This document shows, in pieces, positions 20,989 to 29,758 of a stretch of DNA of 45,859 nucleotides (positions are counted from its first letter, which is position 1; the number at the start of each line of letters is the position of its first letter). The DNA is from a virus. The position numbers and the translations under genes were made by a program. The stretch is taken from positions 1-45,859 of IMG/VR virus record IMGVR_UViG_3300034272_000724; one strand, 5' to 3'. The notes below the pieces were generated by a model that saw only the letters and a list, made by a program, of their open reading frames with translations, was not told the origin of the DNA and did not search any database.

Positions 20989-22239
20989 TTACCACACACG
21001 ATAGGACGTTTTGCCCAGACTCTCTGGTTTGGCCAAGTTGAAGGTTTGTAGGCATAGATAACCAAGAGCGTCAAATGCGTGGTCTACACCGAGATTTTTG
21101 TTGGGGAGGCCCGTTCCAGGGGAGTAGGTGAGGGTGCGGAGGGATTTGATTAACTCCTTGCAGCGCGGGTGGATGAACAGGCGGCGGGTTCCAGTTGCGT
21201 CAAGGAGGGCGGTGTTGACGCAGGTGATCTTGTCGCGGATTTTCCAAGGGTTGCGGGGGCTGGAAACGGTGAAGCCGCTTTTGCGGAGGATGTTGTGGTC
21301 GGTGGCGCCAACGCCGCTGGTCTTGCGGGCGCCGCCTGTGGGGTCGGGGCAGGCGATGATGCGGCGCTCCACGCCATAGCGGGACTGGATTTCTTCGCAT
21401 AGGTCCCAGGTGGTGGCGCCGCCGGTCATGATGATTTCGTCGAAGACCCAGAGCACGTCGCCTTTTTTCACTGCGCAGACGGCGCTCATTGGGTCCACGT
21501 TGAAGTCCACCCCAAGTAGGAGGGGTAGGACGGGGAGATCTTGGACTTGTTTGTCGATGTTGTCGTCGCCAAATGAGATTGCGACGAGACCGCTGAGATT
21601 CTCGAAGCTCGCCTCGAACTCTTGGCGGAATGTGCGAGGGTCGAGTTGCGCGCGGGCGGCTTCGATCTCTTCTGGTGGGACGTTATCGCCGTCGATTGTT
21701 GTGAATTGCCAGCGGTTCCAGTCCTTGTCGCCGCTATCGGCGTATTGCCAGAGTTCGTAGAACCAGCTAGCCGTGCCGTCCGGGGTGGAAATAAACAATG
21801 CCCAGCCTTGTTTGTCCGCGAGGGCTGGGCGGATTACCTCGAACCAGACCTCCGCGTCCATGAACGCGGCTTCGTCGAGCACCACGCCAGCGAGGCTTCT
21901 GCCTCGTAGGGCCATTGCGTTTTCAGTGCCCTTCAGTTCGATCGTCGAGCCGTTCACTAGCTCGATCTTGAGGTCCGTTTCGTTCTTTGCCTTGATCCAG
22001 GCTTTCGGGACGAGGCGTTTCAGGACTTTCCAGGCAATGTCTTTCGCCATCCGGTATGTAGGGGCGGCATAGAAAAAGGTTTCGCCCGGCCTTTCGATCG
22101 CCCCACGCAATAACTCGATACATGACAGGTAACTTTTGCCGAATCGCCGGCCAGCTACCAATACTCTGAAGCGTTTTCGACTGGAGAAAACTTCGCCCTG
22201 GGCGTAGCGAAGGGTGAGTGCTCCAGCAGAATCGGGCAT
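20989..22239 (-). CDS. terL: Terminase large subunit (416 aa)
   Basis: An ATPase domain with Walker A-like A-G-R-R-F-G-K-S (residues 29-36) and Walker B V-V-L-D-E-A-A-F (about residue 117) is followed by an RNase H-like nuclease domain with L-G-V-D-F-N-V-D-P, C-P-D-P-T-G-G and D-H-A-F-D-A-L-G-Y carrying the metal-binding Asp residues. The protein pumps DNA into the prohead and cuts concatemers. Somewhat short for the family but all key motifs are present. Confidence 0.95.
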   Translation of the reverse strand: MPDSAGALTLRYAQGEVFSSRKRFRVLVAGRRFGKSYLSCIELLRGAIERPGETFFYAAPTYRMAKDIAWKVLKRLVPKAWIKAKNETDLKIELVNGSTIELKGTENAMALRGRSLAGVVLDEAAFMDAEVWFEVIRPALADKQGWALFISTPDGTASWFYELWQYADSGDKDWNRWQFTTIDGDNVPPEEIEAARAQLDPRTFRQEFEASFENLSGLVAISFGDDNIDKQVQDLPVLPLLLGVDFNVDPMSAVCAVKKGDVLWVFDEIIMTGGATTWDLCEEIQSRYGVERRIIACPDPTGGARKTSGVGATDHNILRKSGFTVSSPRNPWKIRDKITCVNTALLDATGTRRLFIHPRCKELIKSLRTLTYSPGTGLPNKNLGVDHAFDALGYLCLQTFNLAKPESLGKTSYRVW

Positions 22240-22400: not shown

Positions 22401-22592
22401 CTAGGCCGCCAGCAGCCGGCGCACCGTGGTGCGCGAGCAGCCGAGACGGTCGGCTATGGCTTGCTGCGTCAGTCCGTTGCGACGCCAGCGCTTGGCGCGT
22501 TGCTGGCGAGACTCGCTGGCCCAAGCCAGCACGAGAAGGGGGAGCAGGATCAGCGCCAGCAGAATTGCGGCGGTGGTGGTGATGGTTGCCAT
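22401..22592 (-). CDS. Membrane-anchored helix-turn-helix protein (63 aa)
   Basis: The ATG at 22592 gives M-A-T-I-T-T-T, then an 18-20 residue hydrophobic segment (A-A-I-L-L-A-L-I-L-L-P-L-L-V-L-A-W), then a basic resolvase-type HTH (R-R-N-G-L-T-Q-Q-A-I-A-D-R-L-G-C-S-R-T-T-V-R-R-L-L). Only one membrane pass is possible, with the HTH probably cytoplasmic. A longer open frame exists upstream but lacks a protein-like composition. It could tether DNA or a terminase complex to the membrane, or be a regulator. Confidence 0.65.
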   Translation of the reverse strand: MATITTTAAILLALILLPLLVLAWASESRQQRAKRWRRNGLTQQAIADRLGCSRTTVRRLLAA

Positions 22593-22608
22593 GGTGTGGC
22601 TGTGTGTG

Positions 22609-22625
22609 CTCTCGTATTGTAGCAC
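22609..22625 (-). promoter_or_regulatory. Extended -10 promoter candidate
   Basis: On the minus strand TGC-TACAAT (22621-22616 for the hexamer) matches an extended -10 element at 5 of 6 bases. It lies about 24 bp upstream of the ATG at 22592. No -35 consensus is seen. Confidence 0.45.
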
Positions 22626-22678
22626 AGCAGAGCCGCGCAGTGCGGCCCTACTGTCACACAGTGTAACATTAGCAGAGC

Positions 22679-22825
22679 TTATCGCCCGAGCACCACCAGG
22701 CGGCATTCGGCAGCGGAGCGACCGGCAGACTCGCATCGTGCCAGCTGGTTTGCGTTGTCGGCGCCCATAGCGAGCACACCGCAGGCGGTGAGCAGAGCGG
22801 CGAGGGTAAGGAGGCGGGAAGGCAT
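22679..22825 (-). CDS. Small lipoprotein-like secreted protein (48 aa)
   Basis: Starts M-P-S-R-L-L-T-L-A-A-L-L-T-A-C-G; the stretch L-T-A-C fits a lipobox at residues 12-15. The remaining 33 residues contain two Cys (C-E-S-A-G-R-S-A-A-E-C) and end in L-V-V-L-G-R. A lipid-anchored or secreted role is inferred. It could resemble a small spanin, but it lies with packaging genes, not with the lysis genes. Confidence 0.5.
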   Translation of the reverse strand: MPSRLLTLAALLTACGVLAMGADNANQLARCESAGRSAAECRLVVLGR

Positions 22826-22877
22826 AGGGAAGCGTGGTGAGCTTACATCCCATTGTTGCACACTATCGGCCGTTTGC

Positions 22878-23333
22878 CTAGCCCTGGCGCTTGTCTTCCA
22901 CGGTGATATTCAGCGTGGGTGCAGCGGCTGCCTGCTGTTCGGGTGCAGCCTCGCCAATCACCGCGCCCATGTCTTTGAGCAGCATCGCCACAGTCTGCAA
23001 CTGACCCTTCCTGAGAGCCTTATGCACGGTCGCCAGGCGCAGCGCCTGTATTTGGTTAAGTAGATTCTCACGAGTCTCGATTTGCTCCGTTTTAAGAATC
23101 TGCATCGCAGCTGAATAATCCCTTCCAGCTGTAACCTCAGATACTCCAAAGCGATCCATCACCTTCTGCAGTACCTGGCGACGGGTTCCGCCCTCCAGCA
23201 TCGCTGCATAGGCGAAGTTCATCCGTTCATCCATCCGCACCGATGAACCCTTACCACCACGCCACCGTTTGGTGGGATCGTTCGCCACCGTGAGCGGTTC
23301 GTTCTTTACATCTTGTGCCTCAGAATCGGCCAC
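22878..23333 (-). CDS. Probable terminase small subunit (151 aa)
   Basis: An N-terminal helical DNA-binding region contains a helix-turn-helix-like stretch (R-R-Q-V-L-Q-K-V-M-D-R-F-G-V-S-E-V-T-A), followed by long helices and a C-terminal Ala/Pro linker. Size, fold pattern and position upstream of the large terminase suggest TerS, which recognises the packaging site. A terminator precedes the gene, so transcription may restart in 23334-23380. Confidence 0.7.
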   Translation of the reverse strand: MADSEAQDVKNEPLTVANDPTKRWRGGKGSSVRMDERMNFAYAAMLEGGTRRQVLQKVMDRFGVSEVTAGRDYSAAMQILKTEQIETRENLLNQIQALRLATVHKALRKGQLQTVAMLLKDMGAVIGEAAPEQQAAAAPTLNITVEDKRQG

Positions 23334-25020: not shown

Positions 25021-25431
25021 ATGCTCACCAGCCAGAAGGAACGGCAGCAGCTTGCCCGAGATCAGCGAGAGGCTGAGCGGGAGATGACGCGCCAAGAGAA
25101 ACGGGCGCTGCGAGACCTGCGCTACTGCGCGGAACGCTCCACCCTCTCAGAGATCGAGTGGCGCGATCTGCTGCGGCTCCACCAGTTGCACGGCAAGGAA
25201 GGGATCCGGGAGCTTTGGGAGTCCGTCATTCCATACTGGAATCAGTGCCAGCTGCTAAATGGCGGGGAGCCCTGCCCGAGCGATCTCGTGCCAGCCGGTC
25301 TGAAATTAAGTGCAAAAAAAGCGCGCACAACACCCACTACACGCAAACCACCGGGCGCCCCACGCAAACCCCGCGCCGATGCCGGTAAGCCTCGCGCCAG
25401 TTACAGGCAACGCACCAAGCCTGCAGGCTGA
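25021..25431 (+). CDS. Basic, partly disordered protein (136 aa)
   Basis: No family recognised. The first 80 residues are helical and highly charged (K-E-R-Q-Q-L-A-R-D-Q-R-E-A-E-R-E, then R-L-H-Q-L-H-G-K-E-G-I-R-E-L-W-E). The last 40 are Pro/Lys/Arg/Thr-rich and resemble histone-like or nucleic-acid-binding tails. AGGGAG touches the ATG at 25021 directly. A terminator follows 6 bp after the stop, so it is a single-gene unit. Confidence 0.65.
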   Translation: MLTSQKERQQLARDQREAEREMTRQEKRALRDLRYCAERSTLSEIEWRDLLRLHQLHGKEGIRELWESVIPYWNQCQLLNGGEPCPSDLVPAGLKLSAKKARTTPTTRKPPGAPRKPRADAGKPRASYRQRTKPAG

Positions 25432-25437
25432 GTTACA

Positions 25438-25466
25438 GGCTCCCACCATGGGAGCCCTTCCTTTTG
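25438..25466 (+). terminator. Hairpin terminator of the 25021 gene
   Basis: Plus strand: GGCTCCCA, CCA loop, TGGGAGCC, followed by a pyrimidine-rich CTTCCTTTT tail. Perfect 8-bp stem; the tail is not a pure T-run. Confidence 0.65.
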
Positions 25467-25474
25467 CCTTGGCT

Positions 25475-25489
25475 TGAGAATGATTCTCA
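25475..25489. promoter_or_regulatory. Fur-box-like 7-1-7 palindrome
   Basis: TGAGAAT-G-ATTCTCA is a perfect 7-1-7 inverted repeat, matching the layout and much of the consensus (tgataat-n-attatca) of bacterial Fur boxes. It may instead belong to the TGAGA/TCTCA half-site family present at 25497 and elsewhere. It lies in the 261-bp gap 25432-25692, which holds no convincing gene. Confidence 0.45.
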
Positions 25490-25496
25490 TTCCCCT

Positions 25497-25510
25497 TCTC
25501 AGTGAGACTC
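25497..25510. promoter_or_regulatory. TCTCA-N-TGAGACTC palindrome, site 1
   Basis: Inverted TCTCA/TGAGA with a 1-bp centre, extended by CTC and followed by ATGAGAC. The same extended motif occurs at 27304 and 33962. It lies 7 bp from the Fur-box-like element. Confidence 0.5.
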
Positions 25511-25600
25511 ATGAGACACACCACGAGACAGCCGTAGGCGGAAATACCGGCCACGCTCCAGCAGACCTCCCATGCTGGGAGGAAGTATTAGCAGAATCGC

Positions 25601-25621
25601 CAATAAATACCAGGTATTGGC
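25601..25621. repeat. Palindrome AATACC-A-GGTATT with outer CCAATA/TATTGG
   Basis: A perfect 6-1-6 inverted repeat at 25607-25619. CCAATA at 25601 and TATTGG at 25616 provide an alternative pairing. It precedes the TGAATGG array by 6 bp. Operator or origin-like arrangement is inferred. Confidence 0.5.
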
Positions 25622-25626
25622 ATTAT

Positions 25627-25712
25627 GAATGGCCGAAACAATACATGAATGGCCTTGAATGGCGTTCCAGTGAATGGTTTTTGCCGAGGCCGTTAGGCCG
25701 AGGCTTGAATGG
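25627..25712 (+). repeat. Five TGAATGG direct repeats
   Basis: TGAATGG begins at 25627, 25647, 25657, 25672 and 25706, in all three reading frames, so the repeat is at DNA level. The array is next to the palindrome at 25601 and reaches the 3' end of the exonuclease gene. It resembles a small iteron set or protein-binding array. Confidence 0.55.
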
Positions 25713-26541
25713 CATCGAAGTATCTGTGACAACGTTCCATAAATGAATCTTCGGCGTCGGCGAGTTCACGAGTCGACATCCAGTGAACGTTAGGCTTACC
25801 ACAACGGCGGGCTAAAACCACAGCTGCTCCAGTGGGTTTCAAACCTGTTAGGTGTTTCAGTCCCAGTGAATAGGCTCCGCATTGGTCGATGTAAGTGTGA
25901 CCGGGAGGTAGACGTTCCAGTCCTTCATCGTCCGTTTTAGTCTTTCTTGAAACGCTAGTTTTCCAGTCCATTAACACTAAGTTATTGTTTTTTACGCCTA
26001 CTAATGCATCACAAGTCCCCGCAAATCCTGCGGGGTGGTGAATAGAAAATTCCGAGGCGAAAATCTCAGTAACGTTCTCAGAGATCCAGTCGCAGAGACC
26101 GCGTGCATAACCGGCAGCGCTCCAGCCAACCCTGGGTACGTTCGGTCTGACGCGCTTGATAGCCCACTTGGTTATGGGCGCTGGGATGCGCGCCAATCCC
26201 TGTTCGTCCCAGCGGATGGAGTTGCGTTTGTTGGCGGCTGAGCGTGCCAGTTGCTGGGAACACTTCAGGAGATACTCAGCTTGTGAATGGGCCATGTTGC
26301 CGCGTGTTGCGGCAATGTTGCGCTGGCAGCTTGCCTCGACGGGTCCCAGACGGGCTTCCCAGCGCTCCAGTCCGGTTTTGTCGCTTGTTTCCTTTAGGAT
26401 GTGTGTAACACTATGGTAAATGTTGCCATTAATGTCTCGGTAGACCCGGAAGGGGCCAGAGTTGTCTTGTTCCAGCCTCCATTTACGCAGTGATGCCAGT
26501 GTGTCTTGCGTATTGGAGGCCATTTGAATAGATTTTCCCAT
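25693..26541 (-). CDS. PD-(D/E)XK (RecB/Cas4-like) exonuclease (282 aa)
   Basis: The core is A-G-F-A-G-T-C-D-A-L-V, then L-V-L-M-D-W-K-T-S (Asp and Lys of the D-x-K motif), then Y-I-D-Q-C-G-A-Y (the Q-x3-Y motif), the standard order of RecB-family phage exonucleases. It probably works with the adjacent ssDNA-binding protein in recombination and DNA processing. I use the ATG at 26541 (a second ATG is at 26523); neither has a good SD site. A frame extending to 26778 overlaps the neighbour and ignores a terminator. Confidence 0.82.
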   Translation of the reverse strand: MGKSIQMASNTQDTLASLRKWRLEQDNSGPFRVYRDINGNIYHSVTHILKETSDKTGLERWEARLGPVEASCQRNIAATRGNMAHSQAEYLLKCSQQLARSAANKRNSIRWDEQGLARIPAPITKWAIKRVRPNVPRVGWSAAGYARGLCDWISENVTEIFASEFSIHHPAGFAGTCDALVGVKNNNLVLMDWKTSVSRKTKTDDEGLERLPPGHTYIDQCGAYSLGLKHLTGLKPTGAAVVLARRCGKPNVHWMSTRELADAEDSFMERCHRYFDAIQASA

Positions 26542-26556
26542 ACTGATAGTACCACT

Positions 26557-26581
26557 AAAAAAGGGGCTTGTTAGGCCCCTT
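26557..26581 (-). terminator. Intrinsic terminator after the ssDNA-binding protein gene
   Basis: Minus strand: AAGGGGC, 7-nt loop, GCCCCTT, then four more T. It lies 20 bp after the stop at 26601 and 16 bp before the exonuclease start. Confidence 0.85.
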
Positions 26582-26600
26582 GAAAATTTCAGTGTGTTAA

Positions 26601-27182
26601 TCAGGCAGCCTTGAAGGGGTTGCCGCCAGTGAGCAGGCGTCCCAGATCGAAGCCTTCCGCTTTTGCCTCGATCCAGGCGGCGTCGATGTGCTCTTGGCTG
26701 CCCTTTTTGCGAGGAACTGGGCGGACGGTGTACTCGGTGGTGAGGCCGCTGCCTTTCTTGCTGATGGTGAAGTCCCACTCCAGCAGGTTGGAGTAGTCCT
26801 CCATTTGGGAGATCTGGTCGATTTCCTTGAGGATTGACTTTTGGGTGATCTGCAGGACTTGGACTTTGCCGGACTCGTAGTTGTAGACCGGGCAGGCGAT
26901 GGCGAACTTCACGTCTGCTGTTCCAGGGCCGCCGCGTCCTTCGCGGGGCTCGAACTCGCCCATCTCGGCAACCACGTCCTCGTAGGTGGGCTCGAAGTCG
27001 AAGCGGAAGGGCTTGTTGGCGCCGTTGGCGGCACCCCAGGCTTCGTAGAACTCCAGAGGTTCGTCAGTGAGTAGGGCGAAGCGGACGGATCCACCATCGG
27101 GGAGTTTGCTGAGGCTCAGGTAGCCGCCGCCGCTGTTGCCGCCGTTGACGTTTGCAGATGCGGATTTTGAAAGGAAGGCCAT
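26601..27182 (-). CDS. Probable single-stranded DNA-binding protein (193 aa)
   Basis: A Gly/Ser-rich N-terminus is followed by an OB-like beta-rich domain: S-V-R-F-A-L-L-T-D-E-P-L-E-F, then V-K-F-A-I-A-C-P-V-Y-N-Y and W-D-F-T-I-S-K-K-G-S-G-L-T-T-E-Y-T-V. This last stretch is typical of phage gp32-like ssDNA-binding proteins. Its own terminator and its position beside exonuclease and primase-helicase support a replication/recombination role. The expected acidic C-terminal tail is absent. Confidence 0.72.
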   Translation of the reverse strand: MAFLSKSASANVNGGNSGGGYLSLSKLPDGGSVRFALLTDEPLEFYEAWGAANGANKPFRFDFEPTYEDVVAEMGEFEPREGRGGPGTADVKFAIACPVYNYESGKVQVLQITQKSILKEIDQISQMEDYSNLLEWDFTISKKGSGLTTEYTVRPVPRKKGSQEHIDAAWIEAKAEGFDLGRLLTGGNPFKAA

Positions 27183-27322: not shown

Positions 27323-29758
27323 ATGTCGCAAAGTAAGACGCAGGACCTGCTGGCTTTTGTGCGCCAGCTGCCTGTGGGGATGGCGTATGCGCCGATTTAC
27401 GCCAAGGATCAGGCGATCCAGTCCGGGAAAATCTCAAAGGGCAAGACCCCTCTAGAGCGCAGTCACCATCAGGTGATGGCGCCGTCGGATGTGGCGCTCC
27501 AGATCGAGCGGAAGCCTGAGGTGTTCCAAGCGGTGGGCGTCTTTACAGGCGGTCGCAGCATGGGACTCGTGATTCTCGATGTGGATCGGAATCTCAGCCG
27601 TCTCAAAAAGAAGTGGGGGGACTCGCTGGAGGGTGCTCCAGTCGTTACGTCGACTAAGGCGAACGCTGCGAAGTACCTGTTCCGCGTTCCTGAGGCCCTG
27701 TGGGGCTCGGTTAAGGGTTTTGGGCTGTCGGATACCGGCGCTGGGTACGAAGTGCTCTGGGGCCGTCAGGGCGTCATTTACGGGGCTTATCCGGGCTCCA
27801 GTGATGGGAAGGCACCGGAAGGGCAATACGGCTTTGAAGGGGACCTGGAGGCGATTCCTGATGCGCCTGAGTGGTTGCTGGCGGAGATGCGGGATCACGC
27901 CGGTAAGGAGATCCAGGACGGTGGGTTCATCAAGAACCGCAAGGCGCTGGATTTCTCGGATCGGGATCCAGCTGAGGTTGCCGAGATCATTCAGTCGGCG
28001 CTGAAGGTGATTCCGGGGCAGGGCAATGGCAGCCGGGATCACTGGGTCAAGGTGGGGATGGCGATCCACTCGGAGCTGCCAACTGACCTTGGTTTGACGC
28101 TTTGGTCGGCTTGGTCGGCGGAAGACCCTGAATTTTCACAGGATTGGGCAGACGGCAATCCTTGCGAGGAGGTCTGGAAGTCCTTTCGGAAGGGGCCAGT
28201 CAGCCTTGGGACGCTCTTTTGGATGGCGGACCAGCAGCTTCCGGGCCGCATGTGGCTTTCGGAGGATCTGCGGCGGATTGTTACTGACGCTGAGCAAGAT
28301 CGGGTTCAGCGGTTCCGTACTACAGGACTTCCTCACGAGGAAATTGTTAGGCGCGGTGAAGCAGCAATGAAGCTGCCTAACCCGTCGGAAGTGCAGCACA
28401 AGCTCCACGAACTTGCCTTAGAGGCTGGTTATCGGGATGCGGCGGCTGTTGTTCGGCTACTTATTGCGGATCAAGAGTTTCGCCGTGGGTCACATGGAGG
28501 ATCGCTCCAAGAAATTTTTGCTGCGGAGGAAACGCCCATCGAATACCTTATTCCGGATTTGCTGCCGAAGCCTGGGACTGTGCTCATGCACGGGCGTGGC
28601 GGTTGCGGCAAGACGATGGCGGTCCTGACGCTGGCAAAACACATCGCTCGTGGCATTCCGTTCTCAGTTCAAGGGCAGGAAGTGCCAGTTGAACAGGGCA
28701 CGGTGCTCTGGTTGAACGGCGATCAAAACAGCCGTCGGATTCGCAAGCAGTTCAAGGACTTGGATTTCACTGCGGACGATCCCGTGATCGTGCGGAACAA
28801 GGTCTCAATGCTCTGGTACCCCTGGTTCATCCAGCAGATTGAGGAGCACCGTCCCAAGCTCGTGGTGTGGGATTCCGTGACCGCCTGTATGCGCGGTTGC
28901 GCCTTTGATCAGAACAAGGCGGAATACGCCGAGCCTTTGTACTGGTACAGCTCGGAGAACGGCGAGAGCTTCCCGGCGACCACCATCGTCTTCATCCACC
29001 ACGCCAACAAGGAGGGCGGCTTTAGGGGCACCACAGCGCTCGAAGACGGTGTGGATGAGTCTTGGGCTATCCGGCGGCCTGACAAGGGCGAGAAGGAGCG
29101 TGTAGGGGCCTCTGCGCGGCTTATCACGATCAATAAGAGCCGTGAGGGCAACGAGGGCAAGCAGTTGGTGCTGCGCCAGCAGGCTGACCTGACCTTTGAG
29201 CTGAAGGACTTGCCTGCAGAGGGCGTGGAGGAGGGCTCACCGGCTTCCGTAGTGGATCGGGTGCTCCAGCGCCTTCGCACACGCGGAGAGGCGATGACAC
29301 GGAAGGAGCTGAACGCCGACCCGCTCGTAGGCGGCAGCGTTGAGGGGATCCGTAAGGCGCTGGACAGACTGGTTGACCGGGGGCTGGTTACGTCCCAGGG
29401 CAAAGCCAGCTATCGGACGTTCCAAGCAGTCTCCGCGCGCAGGGGGGTCGGACATAAACCTGTCCTAAATGAGGAAGAAGACTGCACTGGAGCTGGATCT
29501 GACGAATCGGGTTGTCCGGATTTGTCCGGATCTGTCCAAAACCTGTCCGTTTTTTCGCCGGAAATGGACACAACGGACAAAAAGGACAAAAAACGGACAG
29601 GTTCGGACAAAAACGGACAGGTCATTTCGGCAGATCAATTCCAGGGCAACGGCTCTGAGCAGATCGGACACGATTCCGGCGGGATATTCACGCGCGAGGA
29701 GCGCACACAGGAGGAATTGGACCGCTTGATGCGCGAAGCCGCTGATCTCTGGAACTAA
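27323..29758 (+). CDS. Primase-helicase (prim-pol plus RepA-like ATPase, 811 aa)
   Basis: Residues about 1-195 form a prim-pol-type domain with the catalytic L-V-I-L-D-V-D-R-N motif near residue 85. Residues about 215-310 form a PriCT-like linker (R-D-H-W-V-K-V-G-M-A-I). From about 410 to 640 there is a RecA/RepA-like ATPase: Walker A G-R-G-G-C-G-K-T near 425, Walker B L-V-V-W-D-S-V-T, then I-V-F-I-H-H-A-N-K. A winged-helix region follows (about 660-710). The C-terminal 100 residues are low-complexity, because their DNA carries a GGACA/TGTCC array. It opens and primes the replication fork. Confidence 0.88.
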   Translation: MSQSKTQDLLAFVRQLPVGMAYAPIYAKDQAIQSGKISKGKTPLERSHHQVMAPSDVALQIERKPEVFQAVGVFTGGRSMGLVILDVDRNLSRLKKKWGDSLEGAPVVTSTKANAAKYLFRVPEALWGSVKGFGLSDTGAGYEVLWGRQGVIYGAYPGSSDGKAPEGQYGFEGDLEAIPDAPEWLLAEMRDHAGKEIQDGGFIKNRKALDFSDRDPAEVAEIIQSALKVIPGQGNGSRDHWVKVGMAIHSELPTDLGLTLWSAWSAEDPEFSQDWADGNPCEEVWKSFRKGPVSLGTLFWMADQQLPGRMWLSEDLRRIVTDAEQDRVQRFRTTGLPHEEIVRRGEAAMKLPNPSEVQHKLHELALEAGYRDAAAVVRLLIADQEFRRGSHGGSLQEIFAAEETPIEYLIPDLLPKPGTVLMHGRGGCGKTMAVLTLAKHIARGIPFSVQGQEVPVEQGTVLWLNGDQNSRRIRKQFKDLDFTADDPVIVRNKVSMLWYPWFIQQIEEHRPKLVVWDSVTACMRGCAFDQNKAEYAEPLYWYSSENGESFPATTIVFIHHANKEGGFRGTTALEDGVDESWAIRRPDKGEKERVGASARLITINKSREGNEGKQLVLRQQADLTFELKDLPAEGVEEGSPASVVDRVLQRLRTRGEAMTRKELNADPLVGGSVEGIRKALDRLVDRGLVTSQGKASYRTFQAVSARRGVGHKPVLNEEEDCTGAGSDESGCPDLSGSVQNLSVFSPEMDTTDKKDKKRTGSDKNGQVISADQFQGNGSEQIGHDSGGIFTREERTQEELDRLMREAADLWN
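29450..29670. repeat. GGACA/TGTCC iteron-like array, candidate replication origin
   Basis: Thirteen copies: GGACA at 29450; TGTCC at 29461, 29513, 29523, 29533 and 29544; GGACA at 29566, 29575, 29584, 29595, 29605, 29615 and 29666. Four TGTCC at 10-11 bp steps face six GGACA at 9-11 bp steps. CCTGTCCGTTTTTT and AAAAAACGGACAGG form a perfect 14-base inverted repeat. The steps shift reading frame each time, so selection acts on DNA. The placement parallels the lambda origin inside gene O. Confidence 0.72.

Follow-up and report, generated by a model that had tools for sequence, protein, structure and literature searches.

The window analysed here is an IMG/VR virus record of 45.9 kb (45,859 nt). 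It contains a true intergenic gap of 261 bp (25432-25692) that is flanked by convergent genes and holds four of five closely spaced copies of a heptamer. The heptamer reads TGAATGG on the plus strand. Its meaningful sense is that of the minus strand, on which the exonuclease (exo) and large terminase (terL) genes are also read, and the word is given below in its minus-strand form, CCATTCA. Family-library scans covered selected neighbouring ORFs. The features of the region, in order of position, are:

20989-22239, minus strand: terminase large subunit, terL (Terminase_6N)
22881-23333, minus strand: gene X, encoding an HTH plus long helix protein and adjoining terL; putative small terminase
25021-25431, plus strand: convergent conserved gene of 136 aa with no assigned function
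25438-25456, plus strand: intrinsic-terminator-like hairpin of the convergent plus-strand gene
25600-25620, no strand assigned: imperfect hairpin CCAATA..AATACCAGGTATT..TATTGG, the palindrome of the initial annotation
25626-25632, minus strand: CCATTCA copy 1 (TGAATGG on plus)
25646-25652, minus strand: CCATTCA copy 2 (TGAATGG on plus)
25656-25662, minus strand: CCATTCA copy 3 (TGAATGG on plus)
25671-25677, minus strand: CCATTCA copy 4 (TGAATGG on plus)
25706-25712, minus strand: CCATTCA copy 5, within the final exonuclease codons (..AIQASA and stop)
25693-26541, minus strand: exonuclease, exo (phrog_298, PD-(D/E)XK), starting near MGKSIQMASN
26284-26290, minus strand: sixth CCATTCA, in the exonuclease coding sequence as the GCC CAT TCA of NMAHSQAE
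26601-27182, minus strand: single-strand DNA binding protein, ssb
27323-29758, plus strand: primase/helicase (PriCT_2, AAA_25)

The exonuclease ORF as listed (361 aa, 25693-26778, minus strand) is too long: its first ~70 codons lie over the SSB gene in another frame, and translation probably starts near MGKSIQMASN, at 26541.

The five clustered copies reported by the initial annotation are present, with TGAATGG starting on the plus strand at 25626, 25646, 25656, 25671 and 25706. They occupy only two reading frames (start modulo 3 of 0, 2, 0, 0 and 2) and not all three as was claimed. The description of a gene-free gap holds for copies 1-4 and fails for copy 5, since the minus-strand exonuclease coding sequence ends at 25693. 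Outside the array TGAATGG occurs in the 45.9 kb only at 26284 (plus) and 11088 (minus). The total of seven, against 5.65 expected, is not unusual; the clustering is. The highest count of any one heptamer per 87 bp is five in the window, and 120 Markov-simulated windows gave at most four (a best count of two in 70, three in 49 and four in one). The cluster at 25626-25712 is real and not a product of chance. The start-to-start spacings are 20, 10, 15 and 35 bp in the window and differ in relatives. Copy 3 is directly preceded on the minus strand by CTGGAACG at 25663-25670. At the site of the sixth copy (26284-26290), 42 aligned relatives also hold CCATTCA. Rfam and tRNA scans gave no matches, blastn against phage records found no match, and a literature search for CCATTCA with cyanophage found no relevant report.

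The palindrome AATACC-A-GGTATT was also correctly located by the initial annotation, at 25606-25618 with outer arms CCAATA and TATTGG at 25600-25620. It is one of 14 palindromes of that size in the window. A simple pattern recovered the hairpin in 13 of 92 relatives, whereas the repeats are nearly universal, so the proposed palindrome-plus-iteron layout is not well supported. As a minority feature (about 13/92 relatives) the palindrome was rejected as a core element, and it is incidental to the array. In the minority of relatives that have the hairpin, its pairing is retained through compensating changes (CCCAATAC/GTATTGGG).

Conservation of the array was followed in three samples. The first was built on the exonuclease, whose relatives are encoded in 178 IMG/VR stretches; 80 of these were kept. 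CCATTCA clusters lie at and after the exonuclease stop in nearly all of these, and the reverse word is nearly missing, with a single TGAATGG in the nonredundant set and a CCATTCA to TGAATGG ratio of 283:1 in a further count. The copy number, spacing and spacers vary by lineage while the word persists; one relative, L053, has tandem copies every 9 bp. The second sample was drawn by the array only, as an IMG/VR scan for three consecutive CCATTCA(T) words, and gave at least 120 stretches. Among the matches listed, the majority have this exo-ssb or terL family, some of them in phages of 27-43% GC, and the array is mostly upstream of terL on the terL strand; a minority are unrelated tandem repeats.

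The third sample was blind to the array. Nonredundant loci from the window's own clade were chosen by TerL alone, with at least 4.5 kb of upstream sequence (n=37), and a cluster was defined as three or more CCATTCA within 150 bp. Such a cluster lies upstream of terL at 34 of the 37 loci. The initial annotation had named conservation in relatives as a check, and the word is conserved. Upstream of terL the word was counted 321 times on the terL strand and 14 times on the other; downstream the counts were 0 and 4. A low-GC TerL clade gave 189:14 upstream in favour of the terL strand and almost none downstream. In the array-blind samples the distance peaks at 2-6 kb upstream of terL, and in 14 long relatives CCATTCA is almost confined to the region at and after the exonuclease stop. 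When heptamers were ranked by strand asymmetry, without the word being supplied, CCATTCA led the exonuclease set; in the terL set CATTCAT ranked second and CCATTCA third. The remaining top heptamers belong to TGGANCG. Any single-base substitution in CCATTCA removes most of the signal.

The array is shared by phages whose TerL proteins are only ~80% identical and whose GC content ranges from 27 to 61%. Beyond these, a TerL clade at 53% identity has no clear CCATTCA array (10:0 in 72 kb). The isolates S-CBS1 and DSL-LC07, which have a related endolysin, showed none in the sequence covered, which for DSL-LC07 was a part. The exo and gene X proteins found no match among phage records.

The position of the array varies among relatives. 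It may lie 3' of exo, inside exo, before or after gene X (between gene X and terL in L107), at other points of the exo-terL interval, or inside opposite-strand genes, and the terL orientation is always kept, even where gene X or an overlapping gene runs the other way. In low-GC relatives the word is dispersed over several kb, and in some relatives the copies span 1-6 kb. Three low-GC relatives (L084, L174, L184) carry copies inside the exonuclease coding sequence, 21 nt apart.

Several side observations concern what lies at and between the copies. HNH-endonuclease-like genes are inserted exactly at the array just after exo (L004, L007, L008, L034, L040 and others) and carry CCATTCA in their own coding sequence, where it encodes NPFTG. 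A 58-codon ORF (MDLPLGITCHSC...) downstream of exo in L014, L050, L061 and L145 contains the word four times, as CHS, RHS, NHS and PFT. The array spacers, for example in L012, L016, L031 and L048, hold recurrent hairpin modules (CTCGGCCTAACGGCCTCGACG, CTCGGGCTGGCGCCCTCGACG) with compensating changes that are shuffled among relatives, as are repeated GAGTCTCA words.

Within the exonuclease, CCATTCA is coded in different frames, as AHS, GHS, SIH and AIQ. The exonuclease His-Ser pair is written CAT TCA in 111 of 212 cases, compared with ~4% expected from codon use elsewhere in exo, where CAT makes up 24% of His codons and TCA 17% of Ser codons. In six relatives (L087, L120, L140, L141, L168, L196) the array overlaps an opposite-strand gene or leader, so that TGAATGG encodes MNG or DEW, and the terL strand is kept. 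The array follows terL rather than the local transcript because its orientation holds over opposite-strand genes. Selection is suggested by the constant orientation, the wide spread in TerL and GC, and the codon-level retention at several separate exo sites. These sequence comparisons make the case well supported for a DNA-level, phage-specific, directional element, and they disfavour an mRNA signal. The initial annotation's central idea, a cis-acting DNA control site, stands up well on the same grounds: the word is conserved, oriented and kept at the nucleotide level inside coding sequences of either strand. That annotation had also held that absence from relatives, or a place within a real coding sequence, would count against the idea. 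The word is nearly universal; one window copy and many copies in relatives are indeed coding. The objection thus applies by half, and the choice of codons at the coding copies shows it to be the DNA word that is kept.

Pairs of the word in the two-copy pattern CCATTCAT are absent from six cyanobacterial genomes. A host-derived repeat was rejected on the basis of these six genomes, and the reader of the word is probably encoded by the phage. The hosts are very likely Cyanobiaceae, as judged from sequence matches of two kinds. Of 400 genomes of the Synechococcus WH 5701 family, two have a TerL at 79-83% identity, one on a 10.6-kb contig and one on a 41.3-kb contig. The endolysin shares 57% identity with its counterpart in Synechococcus phage S-CBS1. 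The stretches obtained from both TerL-bearing contigs include one CCATTCA only, so these contigs support the host and not the array.

The candidate reader is the product of gene X (151 aa), a putative small terminase on the strength of its position and predicted structure. In relatives gene X lies beside terL even where its strand is flipped. The predicted structure has an N-terminal HTH, a long helix and a helical hairpin, with pLDDT of 87-97 in the helical part, and its fold resembles the small-terminase plan given in a review (PMC9611059). Sequence comparisons with Pfam, PHROGs and PDB gave no convincing small-terminase match. In a fold search the HTH domain alone was clear, and no small terminase was among the listed PDB fold matches, which does not count against the candidate identity; two BFVD fold matches, weak and at ranks 27 and 46, are named terminase small subunit. 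Gene X comes in two subtypes that are ~36% identical and differ in their HTHs, yet both occur alongside one and the same word, CCATTCA, and this disfavours gene X as its reader.

Taken broadly, the array is probably a landing site on the DNA that serves packaging, or failing that replication, and the window repeats are the local copy of it. Orientation alone cannot separate the two: in all relatives seen, exo and terL run in one direction, and the fixed orientation relative to the terminase genes (321:14 and 189:14) is equally an orientation relative to exo. The constant neighbour in the sampling is the terminase region, which points to packaging no less than to replication. The array is tentatively read, at somewhat under an even chance, as a directional pac- or cosB-like packaging-recognition site of a Cyanobiaceae phage clade. 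Several short CCATTCA words on one strand would be bound by a DNA-binding subunit of the phage, probably the HTH protein whose gene adjoins terL. The bound subunit would recruit TerL and fix both a nearby cut in the concatemer and the direction of packaging, through terL into the structural genes. The binding by the HTH protein, its identity as small terminase, the cut and the packaging function are each putative.

The site upstream of terL, its orientation, its floating within the exo-terL interval and the HTH protein beside terL all favour packaging. Against it, the spread of copies over 1-6 kb in some relatives is larger than a usual pac, and gene X has no convincing small-terminase profile match. 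Contig ends may hint at a cut and are no proof of one: ten contigs begin in the 200 bp upstream of the array and none ends within 900 bp downstream of it, while by hand count four exo-bearing contigs end 100-407 bp after exo. The near-complete relatives begin at different genes of one circular order, which would suit circular permutation and can equally be caused by assembly.

Elements of this kind are known in outline. Lambda cosB R sites and P1 pac hexamers consist of several short, irregularly spaced direct repeats that are read by a small-terminase-type protein. In the present array the word, the copy number and the position differ from both, the Dam-methylation logic of P1 is absent, and the array is recognised from sequence rather than from a mapped cut. 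The pac sites of the headful-packaging phages SPP1 and SF6 share with the array direct repeats near terminase genes and an HTH small terminase, here a candidate. The sets of direct repeats in SPP1 pac are a precedent for repeats in a packaging site (PMC4737164). The SPP1 site, however, overlaps the small-terminase promoter and gene start, whereas the array floats 1-6 kb upstream of terL, and unlike SPP1 and SF6 pac it is built of one conserved heptamer able to lie in unrelated genes of either strand. In SF6, binding of pac DNA by the small terminase shows no clear sequence specificity (PMC4737164), which counts against the packaging reading. Weak binding and little preference for sequence are the rule among the known small terminases of headful phages (PMC9611059, PMC4737164). 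As a variant of such sites, the floating and conserved heptamer array of this unstudied clade is new, and it would bear on how these enzymes recognise the genome of their own phage. If the packaging reading is true, a single conserved, countable and oriented word that is kept inside coding sequences makes an unusually tractable recognition system. CCATTCA is also a simple marker for placing fragments in this clade of picocyanobacterial phages.

A replication origin is possible but on the unlikely side. The copies would be iterons to which an initiator binds, with a one-directional start in the exo-terL interval; the primase/helicase and a small HTH protein are the possible initiators. They are direct repeats in a single orientation beside ssb, exo and the primase/helicase gene. 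The SPP1 origins, which combine direct repeats with an AT-rich element and one of which lies inside a gene, provide a precedent (PMC6316719). GC skew on the terL strand is one-signed in nearly all 5-kb bins of seven genomes, as one-directional replication predicts, and flattens around 22-26 kb of the window. The array resembles SPP1 oriL and oriR also in its nearness to replication genes, but it has no convincing AT-rich unwinding element, its spacing is irregular and its position follows the terminase region. The maximum AT near the array is 0.53-0.67, at the 88th to 99.6th percentile and never the genome maximum. The regular, helically phased spacing expected of an iteron origin is not seen, the spacing being different in each relative, nor is the array bound to the primase gene; it can adjoin gene X or terL. 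The replication-site reading of the initial annotation is thus possible but less favoured, in view of the irregular spacing and of an AT content at the array that does not stand out strongly. A partition site, the other function that it named, finds no support among the selected neighbouring ORFs scanned. If the array were an origin, it would show where replication begins in a large group of uncultured picocyanobacterial phages.

CCATTCA is unlikely to be a guide word with strand polarity, for example a polar fork barrier, an exonuclease pause or a Chi-like site, acting on single-stranded DNA or a moving enzyme with CTGG[AC]NCG marking the direction. Words of the Chi and KOPS type are likewise short, non-palindromic and strongly strand-polar. 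The CTGG[AC]NCG family is polarised genome-wide on the same strand, even over antisense genes, and often abuts CCATTCA, which is itself spread over several kb in low-GC relatives. However, CCATTCA is concentrated near exo-terL, a single region of phage genomes of 40-47 kb, and the genome-wide polar word is CTGG[AC]NCG. Against a reversed control, CTGGANCG, considered as a possible host Chi, is over-represented in Synechococcus and not in Prochlorococcus, and codon use may explain part of this.

The polarity of CTGG[AC]NCG is a lead apart from the claim about the array. In the whole window CTGGANCG occurs 33 times on the minus strand and twice on the plus. In nine long genomes (385 kb), the terL strand is favoured 142:19 by CTGGAGCG and 85:12 by CTGGAACG, and the polarity along it extends over regions with antisense genes. 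A two-word polarity code, quite unlikely as it stands, would have CTGG[AC]NCG mark the genome strand and the oriented CCATTCA cluster upstream of terL mark the start, both read by a packaging motor or a one-directional replication machine.

The array might instead have arisen as a side effect when recombination or homing took place at a hypervariable hotspot, with HNH endonucleases inserted beside exo and CCATTCA as a cut or junction word of no phage function. The shuffled modules between copies, and the HNH-like genes inserted at the array in many relatives with CCATTCA in them, would fit. This is very unlikely in view of the constant orientation, the persistence across TerL proteins ~80% identical and 27-61% GC, and the codon-level retention at several separate exo sites. 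An RNA element in exo mRNA, as a 3' UTR regulator or sRNA sponge, is highly improbable: in the window, as in many relatives, the array lies in sense at the end of the exo coding sequence and beyond it, yet the antisense overlaps on the terL strand in the six relatives above and the array between gene X and terL disfavour a tie to that message.

Three further observations concern the surrounding genome. On the terL strand, GC skew in nearly every 5-kb bin is negative regardless of gene direction in the window and in G001, G004, G005, G006, G009 and G010, suggesting a one-directional process. Beside gene X and terL, the ORF at 22401-22853 (minus strand), when read from its likely start, encodes a short protein whose N-terminal segment is hydrophobic and which has a C-terminal HTH, possibly a membrane-anchored DNA-binding protein. 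The ssb-exo gap ranges from ~60 to >700 bp among close relatives (L016, L021, L022, L059), pointing to a second insertion hotspot.
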